Positions 27,878 through 51,510 of a stretch of 64,000 nt of DNA are shown here, piece after piece; the stretch's first letter is position 1, and each line of letters opens with the position of its first letter. The stretch lies in NCBI RefSeq assembly GCF_009649685.1, contig NZ_WJPK01000001.1:314760-378759 (forward strand), given 5' to 3'. Both the position numbers and the translations under genes were made by a program. The notes beneath the pieces are model-generated. The model made no database searches, was not told where the DNA came from, and saw only the letters and a program-made list of their open reading frames with translations. Source of the DNA: Flavobacteriaceae bacterium EG-1 (GTDB taxonomy: Bacteria > Bacteroidota > Bacteroidia > Flavobacteriales > Flavobacteriaceae).

Positions 27878-29271
27878 GATTGGCCAATTTTGTAATATTG
27901 GAATCCTTTTGATTGCATAGTATCCTTATCTAAAATTCTTCGGCCGTCAAAAAGAAATGCGGGTTTTAGCATTTCTTTAAAAATAGCATCCCAATTATAG
28001 GTTTTAAATTCATCCCATTCTGTTAAGATACCTATGGCATGAGCATCTTTGGCTGCCTCCATGGGGTCTTCAACTACTGTTAATAGTCGTCTGTTTTCTT
28101 CAGGACTTCTTGATCCTAAGTAATCTAAATCACTATAAATTTGTTCTTTCGATACTTTAGGGTCATAAACAACAATCTTTGCTTGTTCGTCTAGTAATGC
28201 ATCGGCAACAAAGATGGCAGCTGATTCTCGTGTATCGTTAGTATCTTTTTTAAATGCCCATCCGTAAAAGGCTATTTTTTTGCCAGAAACTGTATTATAT
28301 AGTGTAGAAATAATATTTTCGGCAAATCTTCTTTTTTGGTAATCATTCATTATAATTACTTGTTCCCAATAATCTGCTACTTCTTGAAGTCCATAACTGC
28401 GAGCAATATAAACTAGATTTAGTATATCTTTCTGAAAACATGAACCTCCAAAACCAACGGAAGCATTTAAGAATTTAGGACCAATTCGACTATCAGCACC
28501 TATAGCACGAGCAACTTCGGCAACATTCGCATCTGTTTTTTCACATAAAGCAGAAATCGCATTAATCGATGAAACTCGTTGGGCTAAAAAGGCATTTGCT
28601 ACTAATTTAGATAGTTCTGAAGACCAAACGTTTGTTTGTAAAATTCTTTCTTTGGGTAACCAGTGCTCATAAATAGCACTTAAAGTATTTTTGGCTGCTA
28701 TTCCAGATTCCGTATCATCACCACCTATCAGAATTCTATCTGCTTTTAGTAAATCTTCAATTGCAGTTCCTTCAGCTAAAAATTCAGGATTTGATAAGAT
28801 TTCAAATTTAACATCATTACCAGTATTGTCTAAGATACTCTTAATAGCACTTGCAGTACGTACTGGTAATGTAGATTTTTCAACAATTATTTTATCATCC
28901 TTTGCTACTTTTGCAATATTTCTGGCACAAAGTTCAACAAATTTCAAATCTGCAGCTTGCCCTTTTCCTTTTCCATAAGTTTTTGTAGGGGTATTAACTG
29001 AGATAAAAATCATTTCTGCTTCATCAATGGCCTTATCAACTTCAGTCGAAAAGAATAGGTTTTTACCACGGCTGGCTGCAACAATTTCTTTTAGACCTGG
29101 CTCATATACTGGAAGTAAATCTAAATCATCATTATTCCAGGCATCTATTCTAACCTGATTTATATCAACAACAGTAACTTTAATTTCAGGGCATTGACTA
29201 GCAATAACAGACATAGTTGGGCCACCTACATAACCGGCGCCAATACAGCAAATTTTTGTAACTTTTTTCAT
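27874..29271 (-). CDS. ugd: UDP-glucose 6-dehydrogenase
   Basis: A 465-residue NAD-dependent dehydrogenase making UDP-GlcA from UDP-Glc. The N-terminus [19 protein letters not shown], the [17 protein letters not shown] loop, [26 protein letters not shown] and the active-site Cys in [19 protein letters not shown] are those of the longer, animal-type UGDH group and differ from the second dehydrogenase at 24443. [18 protein letters not shown] marks the C-terminal Rossmann domain. First gene of the minus-strand nucleotide-sugar operon, with about 410 bp upstream shared divergently with the aminotransferase gene. Confidence 0.96.
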
Positions 29272-32751: not shown

Positions 32752-32808
32752 TTTTTTTATTATTCTTGCATATTTTTAAAAACTTAAATCATAATAAATT
32801 TGAATACT

Positions 32809-33567
32809 ATGCGCTTAAATTTCCTATCTGTTTGTTTGATTGTATTAATTTTTAGTTCATGTGCATCTAAAAAGGATATTGTTTACTTTCAAAATGCTGG
32901 TGATTATGAAACGATAGTAAGTGACAATTCTCACACCAATAAGTTTAAAATTGATGATGTTTTAAGTATACATGTATCTACTTTTGATCCACAAGCAAGT
33001 ATGCCTTTTAATCTGCTAAAAGGAGCTGAAGAAGGGGGTATTAAAGCGGAACAAGTAGATTATATTATTGACAAAAATGGTGAAATTGATTTTCCAGTAT
33101 TAGGTGCAATTAAACTAGTTGGACTTTCACCTGAAGAAGCAAAATTATTTTTAAAAGAAAAACTTTCTCCTTATTTAAAAGATGCAATAGTTAATATTCG
33201 ATTAAAGAATTTTACTGTAACTGTTCTTGGTGAGGTTAATAGACCAGGAACCTATCCGGTAGATGGTGAGCAAATAACTGTGCTAGAGGCAATTGGATTA
33301 GCTAATGACTTAACTATTAAGGGTTTGAGAAAAAACGTGATGGTAATACGCGATTTTAATGGAACAAAAGTGTATACGCGTATAGACCTAACCCAAAAGG
33401 AATCTCTAAATTCACCCGTATACTACTTAACACAGAACGATGTGGTTTATGTTGAACCAAATGAGTCTGCGGTAAACTCATCTGCTTTTGATAGTAGGGT
33501 CTCAGTATGGGTATCAATAGCTTCATTGCTAATCACTTCTACAGTGCTTTTAATCACAAGGTTATAG
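32809..33567 (+). CDS. wza: Polysaccharide export outer-membrane lipoprotein (Wza-like)
   Basis: About 252 residues from ATG 32809 (MRLNFLSVCLIVLIFSSC); a TTG three codons earlier is less likely. The SPII lipobox FSSC places the mature N-terminus at Cys. KFKIDDVLSIHVSTFDPQASMPFN begins the Poly_export domain and VTVLGEVNRPGTYPVDGEQITVLEAIGLAND the SLBB domain; a C-terminal hydrophobic segment (VSVWVSIASLLITSTVLLIT) is common in Bacteroidota homologues. It should form the outer-membrane exit channel paired with the Wzc 54 bp downstream. Confidence 0.94.
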   Translation: MRLNFLSVCLIVLIFSSCASKKDIVYFQNAGDYETIVSDNSHTNKFKIDDVLSIHVSTFDPQASMPFNLLKGAEEGGIKAEQVDYIIDKNGEIDFPVLGAIKLVGLSPEEAKLFLKEKLSPYLKDAIVNIRLKNFTVTVLGEVNRPGTYPVDGEQITVLEAIGLANDLTIKGLRKNVMVIRDFNGTKVYTRIDLTQKESLNSPVYYLTQNDVVYVEPNESAVNSSAFDSRVSVWVSIASLLITSTVLLITRL

Positions 33568-35991: not shown

Positions 35992-36018
35992 TCTAAAATA
36001 AGATATTAAAATAAAACA

Positions 36019-36048
36019 AATCCTGAGATAATATCTTGGGATTTTTTG
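36019..36048 (+). terminator. Rho-independent terminator after wzc
   Basis: Hairpin arms AATCCTGAGAT and ATCTTGGGATT pair over eleven positions with two G-T wobbles and a short AAT-type loop, followed by a run of six T. It ends the aminotransferase-pglF-wza-wzc transcript. Confidence 0.85.
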
Positions 36049-36224
36049 TCTTTAAAATTTTCAGTTATTAGCAATTAATCTTGTTTAAATGCAAGTTGGA
36101 AAAATATTAAAATACTATAATTCCTAATGCTCCGTTTTTGTAGATATGTTATGTAATTAGTCGATTACACAGGATTTTAAACGAAAATGAAGTAGGGTAT
36201 TTCGGCTATAAGTTGTTATTGAGT

Positions 36225-36232
36225 TATCTTTG
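36225..36232 (+). promoter_or_regulatory. Candidate -7 box TATCTTTG for the first giant gene
   Basis: Exact match to the Bacteroidota consensus TAnnTTTG, downstream of the wzc terminator. No clear TTG lies 17-23 bp upstream, which lowers confidence. If used, transcription would begin near 36239, which argues against the in-frame TTG at 36230 as start codon. Confidence 0.5.
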
Positions 36233-36295: not shown

Positions 36296-39200
36296 ATGGA
36301 AAAAAAATACACTAATCATAAGCGAAATTTAGATTCGTTATGCTATGAGAATATTATTGGTAAAAATCATATTTTGTTAAAATCTTATTCTTGGATACTA
36401 CTAATTCTATTGTTTCTTACCACTAGTTCAACAGTACAGGCACAGCTTCCTACATCTTTTCAACAAGTAGATTTGTTAACAGGTTTAACGAATGCCACAA
36501 CCATGCAATTTGCTCCTGATGGGCGTATTTTTATATTAGACCGTGGCGGTGAAATTATAATATATAAAACAGATACTCAAACTTCGGTAAGTGCTGGTAC
36601 CTTACCTGTTTATAACGAATTTGAAGATGGTTTATTGGGTATTGCTTTTGATCCTAATTTTTTAATTAACAATTATATTTATTTACATTATTCTGTAATT
36701 GGAGTGGACAAAAATCGGGTGTCTCGGTTTACAATGAATGGTGATGCGATTGATTTGTCCTCGGAGGCAATCTTATTAGATTGGACCACACAGCGTATTT
36801 TAAGTTTCCATACAGGCGGTGACATGGCATTTGATTCCCAAGGAAATCTTTATATCGCGACTGGAGATAATACCAATCATGGTGGATATAGTAAAATGAG
36901 TCAAACTGAAAATGAAAACAGTGCCGAAAAAAGTTCATCTAACACCAATGATTTGCGAGGTAAAATATTGCGAATAACACCGCTATCCAATGGTACATAT
37001 TCAATACCACCTGGCAACCTTTTCCCTGTAGGCACTGCAAATACAAGGCCAGAAATTTATGTAATGGGTGCTCGAAATCCTTACCGTATATTTGTGGATG
37101 ACTCAAATTCAGATTGGTTGTTTTGGGGAGAAGTAGGACCTGATGCTAACTCCGCAAGTGCCACCTTAGGCCCAGAGGGATTGGATGAATTGAACCTTGT
37201 GAAGCAAGCAGGAAATTATGGTTGGCCCTATTTTTCTGGTGCGGATAATGATGCTTATCAAGTATTGTATAGAACTCCGTCTCCATATTTTTACGACCCA
37301 GCGTCTCCTGAAAATATTTCTAATTTTAACACGGGATTAACGAACTTGCCTGCGGCGCAACCTGCATGGTTAGAGTTTCCTGCTGAATGTTATTTGGCAG
37401 GTCCGCGTTATTATCACAATGCAAGTCTAACAGATTTGCAACGTTTTCCAATTGAATTGGATGAGCATTTCTTTTATTATGACTTTAACACGAGTCAAAT
37501 ATGGGCTGTAGAGATGGATGCTCAAGGAAATATTTTGAACAATGAACAATTTGCACCAACTGTATTTCCCAGTAATAATGATGGATTTATAGATATGGAA
37601 ATGGGACCTGATGGTAAAATGTATATCTTATCTTATGGTGCAGGATGTTGCCCAGATAACGTTGCCACTGGAAAATTACTTCGAGTAGATTATACGGGTA
37701 TAACTTCGAATGCGCCTCCTACAGTTAAGCTGTCAGCAGATGTAACAAGTGGTCAATTACCATTAACAGTTAATTTTTCTAGTGTCGGTACTTCAGATCC
37801 AAACGGAGATTCACCATTAACATATGAATGGGACTTTGATGGCGATGGTTTCGTAGATTCTGTTGGTGCCAACCCAACTTACACATACACGGTTGCTGGA
37901 ACTTTTAATGTTCAACTAAAAGTAAATGATGGTAATGGCGGTGTAGGAGTTAATAATATAACAATTTATGCCGGTAATACTGCGGCTGTTTTTACCTACA
38001 ATAATCCACAAGACGGTGGTTTTATGGATTGGGGTGATGAAATTTCAATTGATTTAACCGTAACTGATGCAGAAGATGGCTCAACAGGTTCTGGCATTGA
38101 TTGTAACGACGTTAATATAGTGCCTGCTTTAGGTCATTTAAATCACTATCATGATTTAGCCACTATAACGGGTTGTCCTAATGATTTTACACTGTCTTAT
38201 GATGGACATGATATTTCTGGAGATATGGATATTTATTATGTTATAAACGCTAATTATACCGACCAAGGCGGACTACTCACATATAACCAAATAGTATTAC
38301 ATCCAAAAAGAAAGGAAGCCGAATATTACGATACAGAAGACGGCACTACAATTATAACGAATACTGATATATTCGAAGGTGGAGCGTCTGCACTTGAAGT
38401 TAATAACAATGGTTATATTTCGTTTTCAGATAGAAATCTGGTGAATATGAGTGCCGTTAAATATAAAGTAGCCTCAACAACTGCTGGAGGGACCATAGAA
38501 TTTAGATTAGGAAGTCCAACAGGCACTTTATTAGCAACTACTGCAGTTCCTAACACTGGCAGTTTAAATAATTGGGAGGCTGTTGAGTCAAACTTTCCAA
38601 CAACGGTAGGCAAACAAGATCTCTATTTTGTATTTAAAAGTTCAAGTGGTTCTCAAGGAATTTTCGATTTAAATTATGTTGAGTTTATAGGCCCTGGTGT
38701 ATCTACCGATAATACTGCACCTGAAATTTCAATCGTAGAAGCTTTAAGTTCGACAGAAGTACAGGTGAAATTCTCTGAATATGTAACGGCTAATACAGCA
38801 AATCAAATATCTAATTATAATATTGACAATGGAGTAACGATTAGTTCAGCAGTATTGCAACAAGATGGTTTAAATGTTTTACTTACAGTATCACCATTAA
38901 GTTCCAGTTCTAGTTATTCCGTAACAGTTAGTAATGTACAGAATATAGCAGGACTCCCAATACAAACAGGTTCATATCCTTTCTCTATAATTAATTCAAT
39001 GCGCATAAATTCAGGAGGAGATGAAGTAGTAAATGATGCAAAAGTATTTACTATGGATGATTACGCCACTGGAGGAAGCAACTATTCAAGGTCAATTGCT
39101 ATTGCCAATACCGATAATGACGCAATATACCAAACTGAAAGATATGGCGATTTTACCTATGAAATTCCAGTTCCATTGTCAGGCGAGTATGATATTCGAT

Positions 39201-42200
39201 TACATTTCGCAGAATTGTATTTTGGAATAGGCAGTACACCTGGGGGCGAAGGTTCTAGAGTATTTAATGTATTGATAGAAGGGAATCCTGTATTAACAAA
39301 TTTTGATATTCTATCAGAAGTTGACCCCGCAACTGCATTACAAAAAGAGCTAAATGATATTAGTATTACAGATGGTTTTGCTACTATAGAATTAGAATCG
39401 ATTACCCAAAATGCAAAAATAGCTGCAATCGAAATATTGCCAAAAGATACTTTTTTATCTACCCCTAATATTTTAATTACTTCTCCCGAAAATGGTTGGA
39501 ATGTAAATCAATCTTTTGACGTGGCCTTTAGAGTAGAAAATTGGACAATATTAGAAGGCGACACACATATCCACTATTATGTTGATGGTGTACTAAGTGG
39601 TCCATATTATAGTCATGAACCTATAACATTTGATAATTTGAGTATTGGTAGTCATACTATTCGTGTAGAATTATTTTATGCTAATCATACCCCTACTGGC
39701 ATTTTTGATGAAGTTATGGTGGCCGTAACAGATCAACAGGTTTGTAATGAAACTGATTTCCCAGATTCATGGGTTGTCCATGAATATGATGCAAATCCTT
39801 ATGTAGTAATATATACTTTTGCGAATTATGATTTAGATGGTGATGGATTAAAAGATATAGTTACTGGAGGTTGGTGGTATAAGAATACTGGAGTAGTTTC
39901 AGATAATTGGCCAAAAAGTACGATTGGTGTAAATTTTGGCAATGTAGCCCATGTTCATGATTTTGATAATGATGGTGATATGGACTTATTGGGTACAACC
40001 TTAGGTCCTTCAGGGTCTGAATATGAAAGTGTTCAACTTATATGGGCTGAGAATGATGGCTCAGGAAATTTTACAATACATACGAATTTACCAACCATTA
40101 CTACTTCATGGTCCGAACCGTTTTTAGCGGGATTAGCGGGAGGTGATTTTGGAACTGGTGGTTTATATCAAATGGCAATAAACTGGAATGGCGCAGAGAA
40201 CACAAACGAACCAGTTCAGTTGCTTACTCCTACAGCAAATCCAACAACCGGAACATGGACAATAGCGGATATAAGTAATAGTTCTACAGGAGAAGATCTT
40301 CAAGCTGCTGATATTGATAATGACGGAGATTTAGATCTTTTTCAGGGTGTTAATTGGTTGGAAAATAATGGGTCAGGAGTATTTACTACACACTTAACTG
40401 GTTTGAGTTACGGAAGTACTCCAGATCGTGCTCAACTTGCAGATTTTGATAACGATGGTGATTTAGATGCTGTTGTAGGTCAATTGGGATATGGAAGTAA
40501 TCCAGATAGATACGATTTATCTTGGTTTGAAGCTCCTGCTGACCCTACTCAAACATGGACAGAACATTTATTATCAGATGATATTCATGGAAGTTTAAGC
40601 GTGTTTGCTTCTGATATTGATTTTGATGGCGATAAAGATATAATCGTTGGTGAATGGTTAGGAAGTCGTAGATTGATTGCTTTTGAAAATAATTTATGTA
40701 GTTCAGATGATTGGGAAATGCTTGTTATTGATGACAGTCCACAGAATTGGGAACACCATGATGGCGCACGTGTTGTTGATATAGATAATGATGGAGACTT
40801 AGATATTGTTTCTAATGGATTTAAAAGTCAAAAAGTAGTTAGAATCTATGAGAACACTACCCCATTAATTGTAAGTAATGACCCAGTTGTTGATGCAGGA
40901 TTGGATCAAACTGTAATCTTACCGAACAATACAATTACTATTTCAGGTTCGGCAACATCGCCAGATGGTAGTACTATTGCTAGTTATTTGTGGACGCAAG
41001 TTGAGGGTCCTAATGCAGCTGTCATGGCTAATGAAAATACTACTACTTTAGGTTTAAGTGAGTTAATATTAGGTGAGTATGTTTTTAGATTAACTGCTAT
41101 TAATGATTCAAATGATTTTGGATTTGATGAAGTGATAGTAACTGTTACAGATGGGGCTGAAGCGATACGAATAAATTCAGGAGGTCCAAATTTAACATTT
41201 AATAATATCGATTGGTCGGCTGACAATTATTTTGAGGGTGGTACTGTTAAAAATGTACCCATGCCAATTGCAAACACGTCTAATGATTCACTATATCAGA
41301 CTGAACGATATCATACATCAGGAACTTTAGTATACAAAATTCCTGTTGCAAATGGCACCCATAATTTAAATCTTCATTTTGCTGAAATATATTTTGGAGT
41401 TCCTGGTGATGGTTCGGATGGAGGAGAAGGGTCTCGTGTTTTTAATATTGATATTGAAAACGGACAAGGAGTTCGTGAAAATTACGATATTATTAAAGAG
41501 TCTGGAGGTCCTGCAACAGCGATTATAGAAAATTTTACCGGAATTAATGTAACCGATGGGGAATTGACAATTACCTTGACATCTGTGGTTGAAAACCCTA
41601 AAATTTCAGGGATTGAAATTGTTAGTGGTGGTACGAGTAGTGTACCAATTGCAGATGCTGGTGAAGACCGTACTATTACGATTCCAGTAGACACTATTAC
41701 TCTAGATGGCTCTGCAAGTGACCCAGATGGAGGATTGATTACGTCTTATTTATGGACCCAAGAAAGCGGACCTAATACGGCAATAATGAATGGTGATAAT
41801 ACAGCGGATATTGGTTTAAGTGGACTAATTGAAGGTGAATATGTTTTCAGATTAACGGTAACAGATGATGATGATGAAGTTGGTTTTGACGAAGTTACAG
41901 TTACTGTTTTAGGAGAACCCGAGACATTTAGAATAAATTCTGGGGGTCCTGAGTTAAGTTTTAATGAAGAAGTTTGGTCTGAAGATAACTATTTTGTTGG
42001 AGGTAGTATTTTTGAGAATATTATTGATATAGCCAATACAGAGAATGATGCGATGTACCAAACTGAACGTTTTCGATCTAGTAATCAACCTTTAGTATAT
42101 GAAATCCCAGTCACGAATGGAAAACATAATGTTAATTTACATTTTGCCGAAATATATTATGGTGTTGCTTCAGGAGGAGCTGCAGGTGGTATAGGTTCCA

Positions 42201-42967
42201 GAGTTTTCAATATTAATATAGAAAACGGACAAGAACAAGTAGATAATTACGATATTGTTATAGCTGCTGGAGGTAGTGCAACAGCTGTTATTGAGAGTTT
42301 TACTGGAATTGATGTAACAGATGGTAAATTGTCAATTACACTAACACCAGTTACAGATACTCCTAAAATTTCTGGGATTGAAGTTATAGAAACTAGACCA
42401 CCAAGTGCAAGTGCAGGTGAAGATATAAGTTTGGAATTACCTGAGAATAGTACCACATTAAATGGTAGGGCTGTCGACCCAGATGGTGGAGAAGTAACGT
42501 TGTTATGGACACAAGTTAGTGGTCCAAATACGGCAACTATTTCAGGAGAGAATTCTCTAGAGTTAGCCATATCAGATTTAGTTGAAGGAGAATACATCTT
42601 TAGACTAACTGCTATAGATGATGAGAATGAAACTATTTTTGATGAAGTGGCTGTATCAGTATATAAGGAAGGAGAATTGCCAACAATAGGTCAAATGGCT
42701 ATAATGTTAGATGAGAACCCAACCAATGATGGAGTTGCTAAAATAAGTGTACTTAATGCTCCAGATGATATGGAGGTGCTTAATATTTATTTACACGATG
42801 TGGGAGGAAGGTTTATAGCACATTATGACCCAAATAATCCAGATATTGTACAATCAGACGGAACATTTCATATTGATGTATCAACTTTAAGAGACGGTTT
42901 ATATTTCATAGGTGTTGGTATGAATCAAGGTAAACCAATATTAATAAAATTATTAGTTGATAATTAG
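36296..42967 (+). CDS. Giant secreted protein 1: dehydrogenase-like propeller, PKD, malectin and FG-GAP modules
   Basis: About 2,223 residues from ATG 36296; ATGs at 36251 and 36287 are alternatives, and a signal sequence ends ...SSTVQAQ. Order by nucleotide: glucose/sorbosone dehydrogenase-like beta-propeller (36440-37695; QFAPDGRIFILDRGGEI, EDGLLGIAFDPNF, GARNPYRIFVD, GPDGKMYILSYGAGCC); PKD (37708-37975); an uncertain beta domain; CBM6-like (38315-38697); Ig-like (38708-38995); malectin (38998-39450); FG-GAP/VCBS repeats with DxDxDGxxD motifs (39745-40870); then PKD-like, malectin, PKD-like, malectin, PKD-like units; and a T9SS-type C-terminal domain (NIYLHDVGGRFIAHYDPNN). Probably exported to the cell surface. 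The propeller could oxidise sugars (PQQ or another cofactor not visible), while malectin and CBM6 units bind glycans. It is a paralogue of the next gene. Confidence 0.85.
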   Translation: MEKKYTNHKRNLDSLCYENIIGKNHILLKSYSWILLILLFLTTSSTVQAQLPTSFQQVDLLTGLTNATTMQFAPDGRIFILDRGGEIIIYKTDTQTSVSAGTLPVYNEFEDGLLGIAFDPNFLINNYIYLHYSVIGVDKNRVSRFTMNGDAIDLSSEAILLDWTTQRILSFHTGGDMAFDSQGNLYIATGDNTNHGGYSKMSQTENENSAEKSSSNTNDLRGKILRITPLSNGTYSIPPGNLFPVGTANTRPEIYVMGARNPYRIFVDDSNSDWLFWGEVGPDANSASATLGPEGLDELNLVKQAGNYGWPYFSGADNDAYQVLYRTPSPYFYDPASPENISNFNTGLTNLPAAQPAWLEFPAECYLAGPRYYHNASLTDLQRFPIELDEHFFYYDFNTSQIWAVEMDAQGNILNNEQFAPTVFPSNNDGFIDMEMGPDGKMYILSYGAGCCPDNVATGKLLRVDYTGITSNAPPTVKLSADVTSGQLPLTVNFSSVGTSDPNGDSPLTYEWDFDGDGFVDSVGANPTYTYTVAGTFNVQLKVNDGNGGVGVNNITIYAGNTAAVFTYNNPQDGGFMDWGDEISIDLTVTDAEDGSTGSGIDCNDVNIVPALGHLNHYHDLATITGCPNDFTLSYDGHDISGDMDIYYVINANYTDQGGLLTYNQIVLHPKRKEAEYYDTEDGTTIITNTDIFEGGASALEVNNNGYISFSDRNLVNMSAVKYKVASTTAGGTIEFRLGSPTGTLLATTAVPNTGSLNNWEAVESNFPTTVGKQDLYFVFKSSSGSQGIFDLNYVEFIGPGVSTDNTAPEISIVEALSSTEVQVKFSEYVTANTANQISNYNIDNGVTISSAVLQQDGLNVLLTVSPLSSSSSYSVTVSNVQNIAGLPIQTGSYPFSIINSMRINSGGDEVVNDAKVFTMDDYATGGSNYSRSIAIANTDNDAIYQTERYGDFTYEIPVPLSGEYDIRLHFAELYFGIGSTPGGEGSRVFNVLIEGNPVLTNFDILSEVDPATALQKELNDISITDGFATIELESITQNAKIAAIEILPKDTFLSTPNILITSPENGWNVNQSFDVAFRVENWTILEGDTHIHYYVDGVLSGPYYSHEPITFDNLSIGSHTIRVELFYANHTPTGIFDEVMVAVTDQQVCNETDFPDSWVVHEYDANPYVVIYTFANYDLDGDGLKDIVTGGWWYKNTGVVSDNWPKSTIGVNFGNVAHVHDFDNDGDMDLLGTTLGPSGSEYESVQLIWAENDGSGNFTIHTNLPTITTSWSEPFLAGLAGGDFGTGGLYQMAINWNGAENTNEPVQLLTPTANPTTGTWTIADISNSSTGEDLQAADIDNDGDLDLFQGVNWLENNGSGVFTTHLTGLSYGSTPDRAQLADFDNDGDLDAVVGQLGYGSNPDRYDLSWFEAPADPTQTWTEHLLSDDIHGSLSVFASDIDFDGDKDIIVGEWLGSRRLIAFENNLCSSDDWEMLVIDDSPQNWEHHDGARVVDIDNDGDLDIVSNGFKSQKVVRIYENTTPLIVSNDPVVDAGLDQTVILPNNTITISGSATSPDGSTIASYLWTQVEGPNAAVMANENTTTLGLSELILGEYVFRLTAINDSNDFGFDEVIVTVTDGAEAIRINSGGPNLTFNNIDWSADNYFEGGTVKNVPMPIANTSNDSLYQTERYHTSGTLVYKIPVANGTHNLNLHFAEIYFGVPGDGSDGGEGSRVFNIDIENGQGVRENYDIIKESGGPATAIIENFTGINVTDGELTITLTSVVENPKISGIEIVSGGTSSVPIADAGEDRTITIPVDTITLDGSASDPDGGLITSYLWTQESGPNTAIMNGDNTADIGLSGLIEGEYVFRLTVTDDDDEVGFDEVTVTVLGEPETFRINSGGPELSFNEEVWSEDNYFVGGSIFENIIDIANTENDAMYQTERFRSSNQPLVYEIPVTNGKHNVNLHFAEIYYGVASGGAAGGIGSRVFNINIENGQEQVDNYDIVIAAGGSATAVIESFTGIDVTDGKLSITLTPVTDTPKISGIEVIETRPPSASAGEDISLELPENSTTLNGRAVDPDGGEVTLLWTQVSGPNTATISGENSLELAISDLVEGEYIFRLTAIDDENETIFDEVAVSVYKEGELPTIGQMAIMLDENPTNDGVAKISVLNAPDDMEVLNIYLHDVGGRFIAHYDPNNPDIVQSDGTFHIDVSTLRDGLYFIGVGMNQGKPILIKLLVDN

Positions 42968-42990
42968 AAAACACTATTAAATATCTATCA

Positions 42991-43018
42991 AGCCCTGGTT
43001 TTTACTAGGGCTTTTTTT
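42991..43018 (+). terminator. Rho-independent terminator after giant gene 1
   Basis: AGCCCTGGT and ACTAGGGCT form a nine-pair stem (one G-T wobble) with a TTTT loop, followed by seven T. It lies 24 bp after the stop codon, so the two giant genes are likely separate transcripts. Confidence 0.9.
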
Positions 43019-43080
43019 ATTATTATAACTTTTATATTGTTTTATTCTATACTGTTTAATAGTAGTTTATCGGTATTCAC

Positions 43081-43100
43081 TGAATTTAAACGTAAATTCA
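43081..43100. promoter_or_regulatory. Perfect palindrome upstream of giant gene 2
   Basis: Arms TGAATTTA and TAAATTCA, each eight bases, flank AACG. The site lies 167 bp before the start codon of the second giant gene in an otherwise featureless 299-bp gap that follows the terminator. It has no T-run and so looks more like an operator than a terminator; function is unproven. Confidence 0.35.
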
Positions 43101-43266
43101 AAAGTTAATTATTTTCTATACAAGAAACTACCTATATTTATATTAACTCCCCTCTATTCGTTAGTTGATATTTCTTGAAGTACCCTCAATTTTAGTTACA
43201 TTAATTAAATAGTTTATTCTATTTGAATATTACATCAAATCATTAAATCGGAAAAACTAAATGTAA

Positions 43267-46200
43267 ATGAATTATTCTATTGGAGAAAAATATAAATCAA
43301 TTTTAAAGTTTCATTATTTTATATTTTTTCTTTTTTTTAGTATTCCATTAAGTGCGCAGTTACCATCTTCTTTTCAGCAGGTTGAATTGTTAACAGGTTT
43401 ATCTAATGCTACAACAATGCGTTTTGCACCAGATGGGCGTATTTTTATTTTAGACCGTTACGGTGAAGTAATAATTTATAAACCAAATTCTCAACTAACA
43501 GTATCAGCAGGAATTATTCCAGTTTTCCATGAATTTGAGGATGGTTTATTAGGTATCGCTTTTGACCCAAACTTTATTACAAATAGTCATATTTATTTAC
43601 ATTATTCTTTACCATCTGTATCCAAGAACAGAGTCTCACGATTTACTATGAATGGAGATCAGATTGATCTTTCTTCAGAAATTACTTTATTAGAATGGGA
43701 AACTCAAAGAACATTAAGTTTTCATTCAGGTGGAGATATGCAATTTGACTCTCAAGGGAATCTTTACATTGCCACCGGAGATAATACGGATCACGGAAAT
43801 TATGCTGCGATAAATGAATCTAATTTAACAAAAAGCGCTGAAAAAAGCTCATCAAACACCAATGACCTACGTGGGAAAATTTTACGGATAACTCCACAGC
43901 CGAACGGCACATACACTATTCCTAATGGTAATTTATTTGCTGTTGGTACAGCGAACACATTACCGGAAATATATGTAATGGGAGCCAGAAATGCTTATCG
44001 GATATTTGTAGATAACCAAAACACTGATTGGTTATTTTGGGGAGAAGTTGGTCCTGATGCAAATGTAGAATCATCTCTTGGGCCAGAGGGCTTAGACGAA
44101 ATGAATTTAGTGAAATCTGCTGGTAATTTTGGTTGGCCCTACTTTTCAGGAGCTGACAATGATCCTTATTTAATTTCGTATGCAAATCCAAATTACTATA
44201 ATAATCCTAATGCACCAGTAAATAATTCGATTTGGAATACAGGCATAAAGAATTTACCATCTGCACAACCAGCTTGGTTAGAGTTTTTTCACAAAAGTTA
44301 CTTTGCAGGTACGCGTTACTACCATGATGGAACGCTAACAGATCAACAAAGATTACCAGTAGAATTTGACGAAGCGTTCTTCTATTATGATTTTAATACG
44401 AGTAAGATATGGGTTGTGAAAATGGATGCCAATGGCACAATTATAAGCAACGATCAACTTGCACCTTCGGTTTTCCCGAGTTCAGCAAATGGTTTCATTG
44501 ATATGGAAATAGGCCCCGATGGCCATATGTATCTTTTGGCCTATGGAACAGGCTGTTGTCCTTCTAATGTAGGTACGGGAAAATTAATTCGAGTGGATTA
44601 CACCGGTGTAATCTCTAACACACCTCCAATAGTGACTATTAATAGTGATGTTACAAGTGGTTCTTTGCCTTTAAAAGTAAATTTCTCAAGTGACGGAACT
44701 TACGATCAAGATGGTGATACACCCTTATCTTTTGAATGGGATTTTCAATCAGATGGAATAGTAGATGCAACAATTGAAAATCCAAACTTCACATTTACTT
44801 CAGCAGGAACATATTTAACACAATTAAAAGTAGATGATGGTAATGGAGGGGTTGGTGTTCAAAATATTAGTATACATGCCGGTAACAATTCTGCGACTTT
44901 TAGTTTTAATTCTCCAGTAGATGGAGGCTTTATGAATTGGGGTGATGATGTTACTTTTGATTTAGATGTTTCTGATGTTGAAGATGGTAGTTTAGCTAAC
45001 GGAATTGATTGCATTGATGTTAATGTAGTCCCATCTTTAGGACATTTGAATCATTTTCATGATGGTGCAACATTTAACGCTTGTTCGGAAAGTCTAGCCT
45101 TGAATCCTGGATCACATGATACCGATGGAGAAATGGATATTTTCTATGTGTTAAATGCAAATTATACGGACCAAGGCGGGCTAACTGCCTTTGACCAAAT
45201 AATATTACATCCTAAACGGAAAGAAGCCGAATTTTATTCAACGAGTTCTGGGGTGAATAAAATGGCTAATACAGATACAGCAGGTGGTGGAAGTCAAGTA
45301 ATACGAGTTGATAATAATGATCATATTTCTTTTGAGGGGAGAAATCTTTTAAACATAAATTCGATTAAATATCGGGTCGCGTCAAACTCACAGGGTGGAA
45401 GTATCGAATTTAGAATTGATAGTCCTACTGGTCAACTATTAGCCGCAACCAATATTCCGAATACTGGAAGTACAAGTAGTTGGATAGATTTGGAATCAAC
45501 CTTTACTGACCCAGGAGGTAAACACGATTTGTATTTTGTTTTTAAAAGTACCACAGTTCAACAAGATATTTTTGACCTTAATTACATAGAGTTTATAGGC
45601 ACTGGAGTATCTATCGATAATTCTCCACCAGAGGTAATCGAGTTAATATCCAACAATAGTTCTTCAACCACTATTAAATTCTCTGAAGATGTAAGTAAAT
45701 CAACAGCAGAGCAAACCACAAATTACAGTATTAATAATAGTATATCAGTATCTTCAGCAGTGCTGCAGTCTGATAATCGAACAATGATTTTAACGCATTC
45801 ACCAATTAAGACTGATGTTAATTATGAAATATCAATTAGTAATGTGCAGAACCTGGCAGGGCTTTTAATAGACCAATCAAGTTATCCGTTATCAGTATTT
45901 AGTCCAATCAGAATTAATGTAGGTGGTAGTGAAATAACAGCAAGCAATAATACTTACGTAGCAGATTCATATAGTACAGGGGGCAACTTATTTAATAGGA
46001 GTATAGCTATTGAAAACACAAGTGATGACCTGCTATATCAAACTGAACGATATGGTAATTTCACGTATGAAATTCCTATTCCAATTGCCGGTGAATATGA
46101 TATTCGTTTACATTTTGTTGAACTATATTTCGGTGTAGCTAATACTGCAGGTGGTGAAGGCTCAAGAGTATTTAACGTGAGCATAGAAGGTAATCCGGTT

Positions 46201-49200
46201 TTAACTGATTACGATATGTCAACTGAAGTATCTCCAGCAACGGCTTTAATTAAAGATTTTGATAATGTTTCAGTAACTGATGGTTTTGCTACAATACAAT
46301 TCTCATCAGTTGTTGAAAATCCGAAGGTATCTGCTATAGAAATATTATCAGCAGATACATTCAATGTTGCTCCAACAATTACCGTGAATTCGCCGGTAAA
46401 TGGAGCAAATGTACATCTACCATTTAGTGTTTCTTTTAGCACTCAAAATTGGGAAATTCAAGAAGGTAGTACGCATATGCATTATTATATTGATGGGGTT
46501 ATGGTTGGTCCACATTATAGCTACGACCCTATAACTTTTGATGATTTAAGTTTGGGAACACATACGATACGATTGGAATTGTATGAGGCTGGACACGTGC
46601 CTACAGGGATTTATGATGAAGTATATGTAAATGTTACATCACAAAGTGTCTGTAATTCTGGAGTATTTCCAGAAAATTGGCAAGTCCATGAAATTGATAA
46701 AGAAGAACTTCCATATCGGCATGTGTATATTATACCAAATGAGGATATTGATGGAGATGGTTTAAAAGATATTATTACGGGAGCTTGGTGGTATAAAAAT
46801 CCAGGTTCTGCATCAGGCGATTGGATTAAAAAAACAGTGGGAGCTCCATTGAATAATATTGCGTTTGCACATGATTTTGATGGAGATGGAGATATAGATT
46901 TGTTTGGAACTCAAGGTACCTATGAAGGTGTTGATATGGCTTGGGCAGAAAATGATGGTTCTGGAAGTTTTACAATTCACACGAACATCCCTTCAGAAAA
47001 TGTACAAACGACATATTGGGAACCTCTTATATCCGGAATTGCTGGAGGTGTTTTTCAGTCTAATGGACCATATCAGTTGGTGATTACATGGAATGGCGCT
47101 GAAAGTGATAAATCGCCAGTACAAATATTAAGTGTACCAACGGATCCCGTTAATATGCCTTGGACACTAATTAATCTTAGTCCAGATTCTCTTGGTGAAG
47201 ATATTATAAAAGGAGATATTGATAGAGATGGAGATTTAGATTTGTTTCAGTCGAGTAATTGGTTACGAAATGAAGGGAATGGTACTTTTACAACTATAGA
47301 GACGGGAATTTCATATGTCTCAACACCAGATAGAGCTCAATTAGCTGATTTTGATGGTGATGGAGACTTAGATGCTGTTGTAGGTCAATTAGGTTTAGAA
47401 TCAGACGATTCCGCTAAAACTGAATTTTCGTGGTTTGAGGCTCCAGCTAATCCCACCCAAAACTGGACTAAACATATATTAGCCACAGATATTAATGGAA
47501 GTTTGAGCGTTTTTGCTTCTGATATCGATTTTGACGGCGATAAAGATATAATTGTTGGCGAATGGAGAGGGGGGCATCGATTAATTGTTTTCCAAAACGA
47601 TTTATGTAACTCTGGAACTTGGATAAGAAAAACAATTGAAGAGAGCGGCAATGAATTTGATCATCATAATGGCGCACAAGTTGTAGATATTGATAATGAT
47701 GGCGATTTAGATATAGTTTCTATAGGGTGGAGCAATATTACTCCCCGGATTTTTGAGAACACTAGTATTATAATGAATAGTGATCCAATTGTAGATCTTA
47801 TAAAAGATCAGATCATAACACTTCCCACATCAAGTATTAGTTTAACGGGGTCTGGAAACGATCCCGATGGCGGTTCCGTTAGTTATTTATGGACTCAAGT
47901 AACTGGCTCGAGTACGGCAACAATAACAGGGAGTACATCATCAAATCTTGAGGTGTCTAATCTTATAGAAGGTAATTATATATTTCGATTAACTATTACG
48001 GACGATGAAGAAGACACGGCGTATGCAGAAGTTACGGTTACCGTTTTACCAGAACCCGTTTTAGGTGATTTTTCATTGCTAATAAACTCTGGGGGATCAG
48101 AAGTAAGTATTAACGAAACTACATTCGAAGCAGATAATTATTATAACACAGGGAGTGTTTTATATAGACCCCAAACAGGCTTAGCTCAGCCATATAGCAG
48201 TATGCGTTTTAGTCGTTCTCAAGAAATGTCATATGATATTCCTTTGGCCGATGGAGACTATACCGTAAAGCTCTATTTTGCTGAATTATGGTTTGGTGCA
48301 ACAGGTGGAGGTTCGGGCGGAGTAGGTAGTAGAATTTTTGATGTAAAACTAGAAAATGAGTTGGTCGAAGATAATCTAGATGTATTTAATGAAGCCGGTG
48401 CAGATAGTTTATTAGAAAAAACATATACAGTAACGGTTTCTGATGGCGCACTCAATATTGACTTTTCTTCATTAGAATCAGATGGAGGCCAACGACATCC
48501 TATTATCAATGCAATTGAAATATTAGGGCACACTTCTGATGATGCAGCTCCAATAGTGGATCACATAGATGATCAGATCATTACTTTGCCAACATCAAGC
48601 ATTAGTTTAAGCAGTAACGGTATTGATCCAGATGGCGGTTCTGTAACTTTTCTGTGGGAACAAAAGAGCGGACCAAGTACAGCTAATCTAATAGGTAATT
48701 TATCAACAAATCTTACGGTTTCTAACCTTACAGAAGGGATGTATATATTCCGTTTTACGGTAACAGATGATGAAGAAGATTCGGCCTTTAAAGAAGTTAA
48801 TATCACAGTTCTACCTGAAACTATTATTACCCAACAACCAATAGTGGATCACATAGAAGATCAAAGCATTACTTTGCCAACATCAAGTATTTCTTTAACT
48901 GGTTCAGGGAGTGATCCAGATGGTGGCTCAGTAAGTTTCTTCTGGACACAAATAAGTGGGCCAACAACTGCGGTTTTAACAGGTAGTTCATCATCCAATC
49001 TAATAGCATCCAATCTAAATCAAGGAGAATACATATTTCGATTAACGGTTACTGACGATGAAGAAGAAACAGCTTATGACGAAGTCCGTGTTAGTGTATT
49101 TCCAGAATCTACAAGTACTAATTTTGCCTTACGTATAAATACTGGAGGGTCAGAAGCTACCTATAATGGAAATTTATTTGAATCAGATAATCATTATGAT

Positions 49201-50649
49201 ACAGGAAATACTTTAAACAGACCGCAAACAGGATTGCCGCAACCGCTAAGTAGTATACGTTATAGTCCATCACAACAAATGTCATATAATATTCCTTTGT
49301 CAAATGGTGATTATACGATTAAATTATACTTTGCAGAAGTATGGTTCGGAGCAACAGGAGGTGGTTCTGGTGGAGTGGGAAGTAGGGTTTTTGATGTTCG
49401 CATGGAAGGTGAATTAGCTGAAAATAATCTTGATATATATAGTGAGGTAGGACCTGATGCTATTTTAATAAAAAGTCATAATATAAATGTTTCCGATGGA
49501 ATATTGAATATCAACTTTTCTTCTTTGTCCTCCGATGGAGGAACACGGCATCCGGTAATAAATGCGATTGAGATTTTGGGAAATATTTCAAGTAACGAGA
49601 ACCCAATAATGGATCTTATAGAAGATCAGATCATTACTTTACCAACATCAAGCATAACTTTAAGTGGTACTGGGAGTGATCCAGATGGCGGTACTGTTTC
49701 ATATGTATGGACACAGACAAGCGGTCCTTCAACAGCAAACTTGTTAGGTAGTACAACATCAAATCTTACAGTTTCAAATCTTTTAGAAGGCGATTACACC
49801 TTTCGTTTAACGGTTACTGATGATGAATTTGAAGTCGTATATGATGAAGTTCTGGTTACCGTTTTACCCGAGCCCAATGTTAGTGAATTTGCAATGCGTA
49901 TAAATACAGGAGGTTCAGAAATGATTTATAATGGAGAAATATTTATAGCCGACACGTATTTTAACACTGGTAAAACATTAAATAGGCCTCAAACAGGACT
50001 AATACAGCCTCATAGTAGTATACGATACAGTCCATCCCAAAAAATGAGTTATAATATTCCAATTTCTAATGGCTCATATATTGTAAGGTTGCATTTTGCA
50101 GAAGTTTGGTTTGGTGCTACTGGTGGAGGTTCTGGGGGAGTAGGTAGTAGAGTTTTTGATGTGTCTCTAGAAGGAGAATTAGCTGAAAACAATCTAGATA
50201 TATATAAAGCAGTAGGAGCTGATAAACTTTTAATTAAATCACATTCGGTTATCGTAACTGATGGCGTTTTAGAAATTGATTTTTCATCACTAACATCAGA
50301 TGGAGGTACTCGACATCCAATTATAAATGCTATTGAAATACTTGAAACCAGCGGGAGTTCTGCTTTAAAAACGCAAGTAAACCGAGAACAGTTGAATGAA
50401 ATGACGCTTCATCCGAATCAAGCGAGAACATTTGTCACACTTAGTTTTGCAAAGCCCATTGAAATTAAGCACGTATTAGTTTTTGATATGATTGGTAGGT
50501 TAGTGGCTTCGTATGAAGCCAATAACATACAAACAGGAGATAATTTCACCATAGACGTTAATACATATCAACAAGGTGCGTATATAGTAAAAACTATTGA
50601 TGCAAATGGAGATAGTTTACAAAAACGTCTCGTAGTGCGTCACGAATAA
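43267..50649 (+). CDS. Giant secreted protein 2: dehydrogenase-like propeller, PKD, four malectin units, T9SS C-terminus
   Basis: A 2,460-residue paralogue of the preceding protein. Signal peptide 1-30 (ending IPLSA). Approximate residues: glucose/sorbosone dehydrogenase-like propeller 31-450 (RFAPDGRIFILDRYGEV, GPDGHMYLLAYGTGCC); PKD 453-545; CBM6-like 657-783; Ig-like 787-882; malectin 883-1030; FG-GAP/VCBS 1130-1500 with six DxDxDGDxD calcium motifs; then PKD-like, malectin, PKD-like, PKD-like, malectin, PKD-like, malectin to about 2360; and a clear T9SS type A sorting domain 2372-2460 (LHPNQARTFVTLSF, VFDMIGRLVASYE, GAYIVKTIDANG). Compared with protein 1 it has gained an extra malectin and more PKD-like units. 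The start ATG at 43267 directly precedes the signal peptide. Likely surface-bound; its substrate may be the exopolysaccharide made here. Confidence 0.88.
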   Translation: MNYSIGEKYKSILKFHYFIFFLFFSIPLSAQLPSSFQQVELLTGLSNATTMRFAPDGRIFILDRYGEVIIYKPNSQLTVSAGIIPVFHEFEDGLLGIAFDPNFITNSHIYLHYSLPSVSKNRVSRFTMNGDQIDLSSEITLLEWETQRTLSFHSGGDMQFDSQGNLYIATGDNTDHGNYAAINESNLTKSAEKSSSNTNDLRGKILRITPQPNGTYTIPNGNLFAVGTANTLPEIYVMGARNAYRIFVDNQNTDWLFWGEVGPDANVESSLGPEGLDEMNLVKSAGNFGWPYFSGADNDPYLISYANPNYYNNPNAPVNNSIWNTGIKNLPSAQPAWLEFFHKSYFAGTRYYHDGTLTDQQRLPVEFDEAFFYYDFNTSKIWVVKMDANGTIISNDQLAPSVFPSSANGFIDMEIGPDGHMYLLAYGTGCCPSNVGTGKLIRVDYTGVISNTPPIVTINSDVTSGSLPLKVNFSSDGTYDQDGDTPLSFEWDFQSDGIVDATIENPNFTFTSAGTYLTQLKVDDGNGGVGVQNISIHAGNNSATFSFNSPVDGGFMNWGDDVTFDLDVSDVEDGSLANGIDCIDVNVVPSLGHLNHFHDGATFNACSESLALNPGSHDTDGEMDIFYVLNANYTDQGGLTAFDQIILHPKRKEAEFYSTSSGVNKMANTDTAGGGSQVIRVDNNDHISFEGRNLLNINSIKYRVASNSQGGSIEFRIDSPTGQLLAATNIPNTGSTSSWIDLESTFTDPGGKHDLYFVFKSTTVQQDIFDLNYIEFIGTGVSIDNSPPEVIELISNNSSSTTIKFSEDVSKSTAEQTTNYSINNSISVSSAVLQSDNRTMILTHSPIKTDVNYEISISNVQNLAGLLIDQSSYPLSVFSPIRINVGGSEITASNNTYVADSYSTGGNLFNRSIAIENTSDDLLYQTERYGNFTYEIPIPIAGEYDIRLHFVELYFGVANTAGGEGSRVFNVSIEGNPVLTDYDMSTEVSPATALIKDFDNVSVTDGFATIQFSSVVENPKVSAIEILSADTFNVAPTITVNSPVNGANVHLPFSVSFSTQNWEIQEGSTHMHYYIDGVMVGPHYSYDPITFDDLSLGTHTIRLELYEAGHVPTGIYDEVYVNVTSQSVCNSGVFPENWQVHEIDKEELPYRHVYIIPNEDIDGDGLKDIITGAWWYKNPGSASGDWIKKTVGAPLNNIAFAHDFDGDGDIDLFGTQGTYEGVDMAWAENDGSGSFTIHTNIPSENVQTTYWEPLISGIAGGVFQSNGPYQLVITWNGAESDKSPVQILSVPTDPVNMPWTLINLSPDSLGEDIIKGDIDRDGDLDLFQSSNWLRNEGNGTFTTIETGISYVSTPDRAQLADFDGDGDLDAVVGQLGLESDDSAKTEFSWFEAPANPTQNWTKHILATDINGSLSVFASDIDFDGDKDIIVGEWRGGHRLIVFQNDLCNSGTWIRKTIEESGNEFDHHNGAQVVDIDNDGDLDIVSIGWSNITPRIFENTSIIMNSDPIVDLIKDQIITLPTSSISLTGSGNDPDGGSVSYLWTQVTGSSTATITGSTSSNLEVSNLIEGNYIFRLTITDDEEDTAYAEVTVTVLPEPVLGDFSLLINSGGSEVSINETTFEADNYYNTGSVLYRPQTGLAQPYSSMRFSRSQEMSYDIPLADGDYTVKLYFAELWFGATGGGSGGVGSRIFDVKLENELVEDNLDVFNEAGADSLLEKTYTVTVSDGALNIDFSSLESDGGQRHPIINAIEILGHTSDDAAPIVDHIDDQIITLPTSSISLSSNGIDPDGGSVTFLWEQKSGPSTANLIGNLSTNLTVSNLTEGMYIFRFTVTDDEEDSAFKEVNITVLPETIITQQPIVDHIEDQSITLPTSSISLTGSGSDPDGGSVSFFWTQISGPTTAVLTGSSSSNLIASNLNQGEYIFRLTVTDDEEETAYDEVRVSVFPESTSTNFALRINTGGSEATYNGNLFESDNHYDTGNTLNRPQTGLPQPLSSIRYSPSQQMSYNIPLSNGDYTIKLYFAEVWFGATGGGSGGVGSRVFDVRMEGELAENNLDIYSEVGPDAILIKSHNINVSDGILNINFSSLSSDGGTRHPVINAIEILGNISSNENPIMDLIEDQIITLPTSSITLSGTGSDPDGGTVSYVWTQTSGPSTANLLGSTTSNLTVSNLLEGDYTFRLTVTDDEFEVVYDEVLVTVLPEPNVSEFAMRINTGGSEMIYNGEIFIADTYFNTGKTLNRPQTGLIQPHSSIRYSPSQKMSYNIPISNGSYIVRLHFAEVWFGATGGGSGGVGSRVFDVSLEGELAENNLDIYKAVGADKLLIKSHSVIVTDGVLEIDFSSLTSDGGTRHPIINAIEILETSGSSALKTQVNREQLNEMTLHPNQARTFVTLSFAKPIEIKHVLVFDMIGRLVASYEANNIQTGDNFTIDVNTYQQGAYIVKTIDANGDSLQKRLVVRHE
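47783..50345 (+). repeat. Tandem PKD-like/malectin coding repeats
   Basis: Within giant gene 2 the PKD-like unit starts near 47783, 48549, 48838 and 49602. The stretch coding DQ(S/I)ITLPTSSISL is nearly identical at DNA level, especially between the second and third copies. The malectin units near 48060, 49115 and 49880 also share long near-identical segments (for example the GATGGGSGGVGSR codons near 48298, 49350 and 50114). This indicates recent intragenic duplication. Confidence 0.85.
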
Positions 50650-50677: not shown

Positions 50678-51418
50678 TTACGAAAAATTCGCAACGGTTT
50701 TCTCAATAATCGGTTGCAATAAATCAAGTGTCTTACCTGAAAGTCGCATGGATTTTAAAGCATTGATTTGTTTCAAATTATGTACATCGGAAGCAACAAA
50801 ATCGAAAAAATCATCTTCTAGTAATTTATGAGCCATTTTTTGCACTTCTTTTCCGTAGAATTCTGAAAGGGATAAAAGATTCAATTGAAATAAGATTCCT
50901 TGATCTTTATACTTTCGATATTTCTTTTTACGACCATGTAGAAATATATATCGTTCTGGATGTGCTAAAATAGGAAATAGTCGATTTTCAGAAATTAATT
51001 TTACCGAATTATCAAAGTTAATGGATGCTTGTAGGTATGACATCTCTATTAATAGGTAAAATTTAGAAAGAGGCATTACTTGATTAGATAGCAAAATAGT
51101 TTCAAAATTAGAATCAATCATATGTTCAGCTGCTGCCTCTATACGGATATCTTCTATGTTCGCCATGGTTAATTCATTTTTTAATAAATCTAATGCTGTT
51201 GTAATTGACACTATATTATTAGGATAATAGTTGTGCATTATATGTGGTGTAGCAATAAATGATGTACAACCAAATTCGGAGAAAGCTTTAATAAGTTCTA
51301 GCGAATCTTTTGTAGTCTTTGCTCCATCATCAATACCCGGTAAAATATGATTGTGAATGTCTACAAAGCCATTAAGGCTATCGATTAAAAATTTTTTCTT
51401 ACTAAAAAATTGGAGCAT
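50678..51418 (-). CDS. CpsB/YwqE-type tyrosine-protein phosphatase (PHP domain)
   Basis: About 246 residues from the preferred Met at 51418 (MLQFFSKKKFLIDSL); an upstream Met at 51451 adds an unlikely leader. PHP metal-binding motifs are DIHNHILPGIDDGAK, IATPHIMHNYYPN, ILAHPERYIFLHG and VASDVHNL. Such manganese-dependent phosphatases remove phosphate from BY-kinases, so the target should be the Wzc at 33622. It is convergent with giant gene 2 (28-bp gap), and therefore not in the wzc operon although functionally tied to it. Confidence 0.92.
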   Translation of the reverse strand: MLQFFSKKKFLIDSLNGFVDIHNHILPGIDDGAKTTKDSLELIKAFSEFGCTSFIATPHIMHNYYPNNIVSITTALDLLKNELTMANIEDIRIEAAAEHMIDSNFETILLSNQVMPLSKFYLLIEMSYLQASINFDNSVKLISENRLFPILAHPERYIFLHGRKKKYRKYKDQGILFQLNLLSLSEFYGKEVQKMAHKLLEDDFFDFVASDVHNLKQINALKSMRLSGKTLDLLQPIIEKTVANFS

Positions 51419-51510
51419 GTAATAAGTTTGTATGCAAAAATAATACTTCAAGTTTAAACTTAAATAAGTTACATTTTATAAGCAGTAAAATCAGTTAGAC
51501 TACTAGTATT

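Follow-up and report, generated by a model that had tools for sequence, protein, structure and literature searches.

Giant proteins with a dehydrogenase-like propeller between wzc and cpsB of a flavobacterial exopolysaccharide locus: candidate coat-binding proteins in an exchangeable position

Introduction

What do two proteins of more than 2,000 residues do in the middle of an exopolysaccharide (EPS) export locus? The question is raised by a stretch of 64,000 nucleotides from Flavobacteriaceae bacterium EG-1 (contig NZ_WJPK01000001.1, positions 314,760 to 378,759 of the forward strand; called the window below), in which two paralogues of 2,223 and 2,460 amino acids (aa), giant1 and giant2, are encoded between wzc and a convergent cpsB. 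A first-pass annotation of the sequence had proposed that they are surface enzymes that both bind and oxidise the exported polysaccharide, or a scaffold that holds it to the cell. To our knowledge, the way in which Bacteroidota hold a coat exported by a Wza/Wzc system on the cell is little described. The scaffold half of the proposal fits the results presented here better, whereas oxidation is not supported as stated. The explanation towards which we lean is that the giants are matrix or anchoring proteins, brought out by the type IX secretion system (T9SS), that would bind the EPS of the neighbouring Wza/Wzc system, and that they are not oxidases.

The locus and its two giants

Open reading frames (ORFs) and Pfam matches confirm the two paralogues and their place. 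The order of genes is aminotransferase, CapD/PseB-like dehydratase, wza, wzc, giant1, giant2 and then cpsB, which is found in the same place in relatives:

29681..32751, plus strand, DegT/LegC-type aminotransferase and CapD/PseB-like 4,6-dehydratase, start of the EPS operon
32800..33567, plus strand, wza-like polysaccharide export protein (Poly_export, 5.1e-13)
33622..35991, plus strand, wzc, tyrosine autokinase/chain-length protein (TIGR01007 over its cut-off; Wzz, GNVR, AAA_31)
36296..42967, plus strand, giant1, 2,223 aa, headed by a glucose/sorbosone dehydrogenase (GSDH) domain (type A)
43267..50649, plus strand, giant2, 2,460 aa, GSDH-headed (type A)
50678..51451, minus strand, cpsB, CpsB/CapC-type phosphatase, convergent (PF19567, 2.6e-35)

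The start of giant1 was taken as the ATG at 36296; another in-frame ATG lies at 36287, and the mechanical ORF opens at a TTG at 36230. The domains that had been read from the sequence (GSDH propeller, CBM6, malectin, FG-GAP/VCBS, PKD and a T9SS-type end) are borne out by Pfam, which finds GSDH, PKD_4, CBM_6, Malectin (three stretches in giant1 and four in giant2), FG-GAP_3, K319L-like PKD repeats and Por_Secre_tail. All of the parts that follow are on the plus strand:

36440..37705, plus strand, giant1 six-bladed GSDH-like propeller, aa 49-470 (PF07995, 9.8e-38, over its cut-off)
37709..38698, plus strand, giant1 PKD, linking domain with an LGHxxHxH motif, and CBM6, aa 472-801
38999..39415, plus strand, giant1 malectin 1, aa 902-1040 (Pfam)
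39749..40870, plus strand, giant1 FG-GAP/VCBS propeller, aa 1152-1525 (mean model confidence, pLDDT, 85.0)
42716..42934, plus strand, giant1 T9SS-type C-terminal domain, aa 2141-2213 (Por_Secre_tail, below the curated cut-off)
43348..44616, plus strand, giant2 GSDH-like propeller (PF07995, 1.1e-36, over its cut-off; pocket residues as in giant1)
46354..47817, plus strand, giant2 Big_7 domain and FG-GAP/VCBS propeller (58% identical to giant1)
50410..50634, plus strand, giant2 T9SS-type C-terminal domain (Por_Secre_tail, 1.6e-10, over its cut-off; TIGR04183, 3.7e-9)

Conservation beside wzc

The head of giant1 (801 aa) was searched against 397 genomes of the family at E values up to 1e-130; here and in the surveys of two other head types described below, at most two candidates were scored per genome. 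A type A head was present in 18 genomes from 10 genera. One or two giants directly follow wzc in 15 of these 18 genomes and in 9 of the 10 genera, with cases at the locus in Aurantibacter crassamenti, Zobellia, Pseudozobellia, Zeaxanthinibacter and Arenibacter, among others. The tie to an EPS export locus, claimed from this one window, thus recurs in other Flavobacteriaceae. On the far side, cpsB is found at 14 of the 15 loci, and at the remaining one (G364) the contig ends first. The heads in this conserved place are 59-76% identical to that of giant1 across the nine genera. Wzc itself is 85% identical to that of the window in a genome of the same genus (G002); because it is only 56-59% identical in the remaining eight genera with the wzc-giant order, this order is either old or repeatedly rebuilt.

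Separate ties to EPS loci were found in a scan of related stretches from named genomes, of which the best 80 of at least 573 were covered. A metagenome-assembled genome of the Bacteroidia (L213) carries two type A giants divergent from a wza/wzc pair that is only 28-29% identical, in a locus that also holds two initiating sugar transferases and an epimerase. In Cesiribacter (L216), the gene next upstream of the one type A giant encodes an initiating sugar transferase, and a family-2 glycosyltransferase gene lies further upstream in turn. In the set of the 79 best loci, identity separates the 20 well covered type A sequences (57-79%) from 21 others (33-42%), and the 11 loci with matches to wza, wzc or cpsB are all of the type A kind. 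ORFs of at least 1,400 aa make up 7 of the 734 non-slot ORFs in the type A and other wzc-locus regions that were compared. A chance neighbourhood is ruled out by the 15 of 18 genomes together with the unrelated EPS loci of L213 and L216.

Calling the giants twins holds for the two paralogues at the locus (58% identity between giant1 and giant2 over query positions 14-1874) but is incomplete, as a third giant lies elsewhere in the same genome (C1:1590193-1595514, L059/L060; 71% identical to giant1 over query positions 30-1619). It is surrounded by metal-transport genes, namely P-type ATPases with heavy-metal domains, a CusA-like RND efflux gene, HlyD and OEP. In 'Cytophaga sp. FL35' (L204), a copy is flanked by P-type ATPases on one side and a CDF efflux gene on the other, and the giant of G197_C3 has neighbours of like lengths; this metal-transport setting hints at carriage on a resistance island. 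The genome also contains an open frame of 1,102 aa (C7:159453-162566, L061) of which the FG-GAP/VCBS part is 75% identical to giant1 and in which no GSDH match was found; it has a counterpart in G002 (C1:1783k).

The GSDH-fold head

An AlphaFold2 model of giant1 aa 49-801 had a mean pLDDT of 88.8. Its propeller matches 2ism with a Z score of 39.0 (root-mean-square deviation 2.3 over 327 aa) and soluble glucose dehydrogenase (sGDH) with bound pyrroloquinoline quinone (PQQ; 1c9u) with a Z score of 34.1. It also matches the GSDH-fold propeller of HHIP, an animal signalling antagonist, solved with heparin (7pgm, Z 34.5) and with a glycosaminoglycan mimic (7pgn, Z 34.1), a comparison at the level of the fold only. 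The CBM6 of giant1 matches 2v4v, a CBM6 with xylose, with a Z score of 21.2 and 32% identity.

The residues of sGDH that matter for PQQ chemistry (His144, Arg228, Asn229, the Gly247-Pro248 calcium loop and the PQQ anchors Lys377 and Arg408) were taken from two papers (PMC6881810, PMC6881789). They were mapped onto the giants through the ordinary GSDH of the genome (L001), which can be aligned with the PDB enzymes. In the first-pass annotation the ligands of PQQ and calcium were named as the residues to be looked at; the catalytic and calcium sides are kept, but the PQQ-carboxylate anchors are not. The equivalents of His144, Arg228, Asn229 and Pro248, as well as an Asp-Glu motif, are present in all 28 type A heads and that of Gly247 in 27. 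In the same 28 heads, Lys377 is replaced by Asn, Arg406, which we take to be a PQQ-carboxylate anchor of sGDH, by Gly, and Arg408 by Ile, Leu or Met; L001 keeps Lys, Arg and Arg. An outgroup of 17 sequences has an Arg one position after Lys377 in 16 cases and an Arg or His at 406 in 10, while the type A heads have neither. The giants score 68.2 and 63.7 bits with the model of PQQ-dependent sugar dehydrogenases (TIGR03606), the cut-off of which is 434.55. A cytochrome c domain is absent from both giants and is fused to a ThuA-GSDH-PKD relative in the same genome; ThuA, likewise present in that relative, was not found in either giant by Pfam. A search for pqqC was silent in the genome of the window and in every control alike and is uninformative on PQQ supply.

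Judged from these residues, the pocket of the GSDH-fold head appears strongly constrained and yet without the PQQ grip of the known bacterial enzymes. Because the PQQ-carboxylate anchors are replaced in all type A heads, PQQ chemistry in the giants seems less likely, and the claim that they oxidise EPS is not supported in that form. The giants thus share with sGDH/Asd (PF07995) and with AA12 the six-bladed propeller, the catalytic His, the Arg-Asn pair and the calcium loop, and differ from them in the replaced anchors, the missing cytochrome domain and the fusion into a giant surface-type protein.

Between the PKD and CBM6 domains, giant1 aa 600-640 (window 38093-38215) contain the nearly invariant LGHxxHxH motif, which is common to relatives at 33-42% identity in other phyla. 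The domain that carries it could be a candidate metal binder.

Candidate glycan-binding modules and a probable route to the surface

The FG-GAP part and the Ig-like domain before it have a mean column identity of 68% over 21 sequences. The modelled VCBS propeller of giant1 is structurally closest to aldos-2-ulose dehydratase (Z 30.6, root-mean-square deviation 3.2 over 347 aa), followed by integrin alpha heads as the next family (Z 24.9). By sequence, phmmer with E values up to 10 retrieved only CRTAC1 from the PDB, and a profile search retrieved CRTAC1, aldos-2-ulose dehydratase (0.089) and a fluorescent protein (0.33). Solved Bap1/RbmC chains are present in the PDB; neither sequence search found one with the VCBS part, nor are they among the 50 structural matches listed for the VCBS propeller, by which homology is not excluded. 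According to PMC8023676, the VCBS superfamily contains lectins, integrin heads and enzymes.

The motifs YQTER[YF] and AE[LI]Y[FY] are conserved in each of the three giant1 malectins. In giant2 the first malectin keeps YQTERY and the other three have AE[LV]WF. Such tyrosines bind sugar in animal malectin.

The Por_Secre_tail family was matched by all 10 C-termini tested, out of 28 type A giants, and 2 of these 10 matches were above the cut-off. The genome encodes SprA (TIGR04189, 2,855 bits), the one T9SS component that was searched for, and the N-termini of the giants look like signal peptides by eye.

From these modules a mechanism may be proposed. The giants would cross the outer membrane via the T9SS and most likely remain on the cell surface. 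There they could bind EPS at several points, through the CBM6, the three to four malectins, the VCBS propeller and the GSDH-fold propeller, the central cavity of which is kept while its PQQ-carboxylate anchors are lost. The ligand would be the polysaccharide made and exported by the adjoining Wza/Wzc system, and the result a tethering or cross-linking of the coat, much as the Bap1/RbmC propellers hold Vibrio polysaccharide (VPS) in Vibrio.

In Vibrio cholerae, rbmC lies in a polysaccharide gene region. The report on its product and on Bap1 describes secreted modular proteins, as the giants would be, that combine an EPS-binding propeller with lectin-like modules, the beta-propeller directly binding the exported VPS (PMC10102183). 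The giants are unlike them in having a T9SS-type end, more than 2,000 aa, an additional GSDH propeller, CBM6 and malectins.

The interval between wzc and cpsB as a cargo slot

A wzc gene was detected in 168 genomes at E values up to 1e-150, and those of about 47% identity or more were examined. This gave 61 loci with a decided slot state, spread over 60 genomes, G235 contributing two; G129 was undecided at a contig edge, and G062 and G234 were partial and left out. The giant in the slot is cut by a contig end in G127, G310 and G201, the contig of G364 ends before any cpsB, and the loci of G081, G236, G225, G392, G028 and G133 were read to the end of the fetched stretch, within which cpsB was not seen. 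Type A giants occupy the slot in 16 loci, type B giants in 9 and type C giants in 4, so that giants of three head types fill it in 29 of the 61; in 25 loci it is empty, with cpsB directly after wzc, and 7 loci hold other genes.

Type B comprises kelch/malectin giants of 2,200-3,100 aa. Pfam, run on the giants of four genomes, found no GSDH in them; five more were placed in this type because they resemble those four. At least 23 of the 397 genomes carry type B, in some cases outside the slot; the number is a lower bound, as G225 (by Pfam) and G392 (by similarity; its giant matches that of G225 at 86% and that of G255 at 48%) are of type B and fall outside the 23. The first 960 aa of the G255 giant (L171) are well kept, at least 23 of the 397 genomes have a relative of this part, and neither Pfam nor the PDB gave a sequence match for it.

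Type C giants carry a galactose oxidase-like head (one head that was searched matched 9g8h at 4.5e-135) and were found in 14 of the 397 genomes. In 8 of them, by coordinates, the head is no more than about 5 kb away from this wzc. The slot holds it in G419, G160, G310 and G201; a place upstream of the operon does so in G020, G154, G177, G246, G160, G310 and G201, of which G246, G154, G020, G177 and G160 were inspected one gene at a time. In G020, G154, G177 and G246 this upstream gene is divergent from the same operon. The other six genomes (G069, G405, G251, G213, G411 and G013) have it elsewhere. In what we take to be AA5 numbering, the relevant residues are Cys228, Tyr272, Tyr495-His496 and His581. 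Of 22 type C heads listed, 18 were examined: all of these have the Cys, Tyr and Tyr-His motifs (HDMFC, RGY, YHS), and 16 have that of His581 as well. With their copper-site motifs intact, these galactose-oxidase-headed giants could oxidise EPS. A possible precedent, by analogy, for the type C genera is GlxA beside CslA in Streptomyces, where a surface-bound protein of the galactose oxidase type is paired with the neighbouring synthase of an exported glycan (PMC3543389, PMC4736821); the type C slot giants have the active-site motifs of galactose oxidase. The giants of the window are unlike GlxA in their GSDH-fold head, which is not a copper-radical oxidase, and in their secretion system and glycan machinery.

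The types are scattered over the wzc tree. On a quick tree of 62 Wzc proteins, in which 20 of 59 inner branches are open, the five slot states require at least 18 changes, against a mean of 31.6 in shuffles and a least possible number of 4. When only well supported branches are counted, type A still needs 6 changes, types B and C 3 each and the empty state 8; for the labels C and O there is little more clustering than in shuffles (46 and 120 of 500 were as low). Within one genus, the sister wzc rows of G105 and G313 lead to a giant and to an empty slot, respectively. The junction of wzc and cpsB acts as a cargo slot: lineages acquire giants there, lose them and swap one type for another. In the open-licence literature, by titles and abstract openings, no account of such a wzc/giant/cpsB slot was found.

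More generally, and tentatively, flavobacterial EPS loci may keep a standing slot behind wzc, and another place upstream of the operon, that take interchangeable giant matrix effectors working on the cell's own EPS: by copper-radical oxidation in some genera, by PQQ-less GSDH-fold binding in others and with a kelch/malectin protein with the 960-aa front in a third group. If true, lineages that swap the giant but retain the promoter would each come to glue or cure their coat in a manner of their own. As export systems are paired here with a conserved and exchangeable giant that would bind or oxidise glycan, the question of coat retention becomes testable by single-gene deletions. The slot points to candidate EPS-specific lectins and copper-radical oxidases, and the order wzc, giant, cpsB can serve as a marker for finding more of them.

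A promoter-like element before the giants

The gap between wzc and the giant measures 169-422 bp in the 15 loci. TAnnTTTG is the -7-like motif of Bacteroidota; it occurs in 10 of the 15 gaps, against 3.7 in shuffles, which led to a longer element of 38 nt. The relevant features of the window are:

36018..36044, plus strand, terminator-like hairpin of 12 pairs, 3' of wzc (consensus match only)
36195..36232, plus strand, 38-nt promoter-like element GGGTA-N16-TTAWTR-N3-TAYMTTTG
42990..43013, plus strand, terminator-like hairpin of 10 pairs, 3' of giant1 (consensus match only)

The pattern was drawn from ten sites, that of the window among them, so that the counts are partly circular. The element of the window ends 63 nt before the ATG at 36296, and the 4.45-Mb genome has no other exact site; with up to two mismatches, the expectation for the window is 0.04. 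In 335 sequences (3.86 Mb, many of them overlapping), the end of every exact site falls in the range from 67 nt before to 19 nt after the earliest start that the frame of a giant allows, several of these frames being cut by the end of the locus. Exact hits that were not used in drawing the pattern come from Zobellia russellii (L215), Z. barbeyronii (L220) and Z. amurskyensis (L241). With up to two mismatches, the element precedes 13 of the 15 type A giants that are first in the slot (all except those of G185 and G364), 3 of 9 non-slot type A giants (G197_C3, G371_C11 and the first of G015) and 2 of 9 first type B giants (G255 and G236). The three type C giants scanned, from two genomes, lack it, as do all scanned giants that come second in a tandem.

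The giants are thus probably transcribed from a putative promoter of their own and not by read-through from wzc. As an unrelated coding part may stand behind the same element, its distribution suggests an exchange of cargo behind a kept putative promoter. A scan for sigma-70 promoters was uninformative (70 hits against 71 in shuffles); terminators numbered 5 against 7.3 in shuffles, and the two junction hairpins are distinguished by place and length only. A regulon behind the element is not supported in this genome, since there is one exact site and the two more at two mismatches do not exceed the level of the reversed-pattern control.

Alternative explanations

Several results weigh against EPS binding as the role of the giants. 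The C-terminus of giant1 matches Por_Secre_tail at 0.024, or at 6.8e-5 when searched alone, both below the Pfam cut-off. Loci without any giant in the slot number 25 of 61, three g14 genomes (one genus) carry giants with no wzc in the fetched regions, and no EPS gene was seen by eye in L218 (Cyclobacteriaceae, 59% identity). The third copy and that of L204 lie among metal-transport genes, so a giant can live apart from an EPS locus. As for chemistry, Arg408 is absent from all 17 outgroup sequences too, the kept His, Arg and Asn together with the Gly-Pro loop may leave room for it, and the best structural match of the VCBS propeller (4a7y) is an enzyme. In PMC6881789 an AA12 enzyme is described that lacks the sGDH lysine and still binds PQQ.

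The points on chemistry enter into the explanation that the giants act enzymatically on the EPS after its export: the GSDH propeller would oxidise it, with altered PQQ binding or another acceptor, and the VCBS propeller would act on the product. The catalytic residues kept throughout the type A heads, the structural distance between the dehydratase and the next family, the AA12 precedent and the galactose oxidase heads with intact motifs that fill the same slot in other genera all agree with it. We nevertheless regard it as unlikely, given three anchors replaced in every head, outgroup positions that type A lacks, TIGR03606 scores of 68 and 64 against 435 bits and, in contrast to the relative in the same genome, no cytochrome c domain.

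It would also be rather surprising if the giants were surface adhesins for foreign glycans or surfaces, such as those of algae or other cells, for which the wzc/cpsB junction is merely a permissive landing site. The turnover of slot contents is what such a site would give, and type A copies do occur in a metal-transport cluster and, in g14, away from wzc; but the ties to the unrelated EPS loci of L213 and L216, the conserved place of heads that are 59-76% identical to that of giant1 in nine genera and the type C genes divergently upstream of the same operon, hence not at one junction only, are at odds with it. Very improbable is a role without the coat as ordinary ThuA-GSDH-PKD-CBM6 proteins for sugar uptake: the heads are homologous, at 33-42% identity, to those of ThuA-GSDH-PKD(-CBM6 or -cytochrome c) proteins from Actinobacteria, Planctomycetes and Verrucomicrobia, and such a relative with cytochrome c is present in this genome, but type A is set off by the identity gap, is without ThuA and cytochrome c, carries malectins, a VCBS propeller and a T9SS-type end and keeps its EPS position. 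Binding or anchoring of the exported EPS remains the explanation that we favour.

Neighbouring genes

Upstream of the operon, the window contains a divergent block of nucleotide-sugar genes that recurs in many relatives:

24443..29271, minus strand, two UDP-sugar dehydrogenases and two NAD epimerases (Pfam)

An open frame of 352 aa (window 23355-24413, plus strand) overlaps the end of an MBOAT acyltransferase gene and is without a Pfam match. Beyond the nucleotide-sugar genes, a PKD-rich protein (958 aa) and a Big_9/cadherin-like protein (491 aa) are encoded at 16736-21529 on the minus strand, and this pair is found again near the same EPS locus in several relatives.

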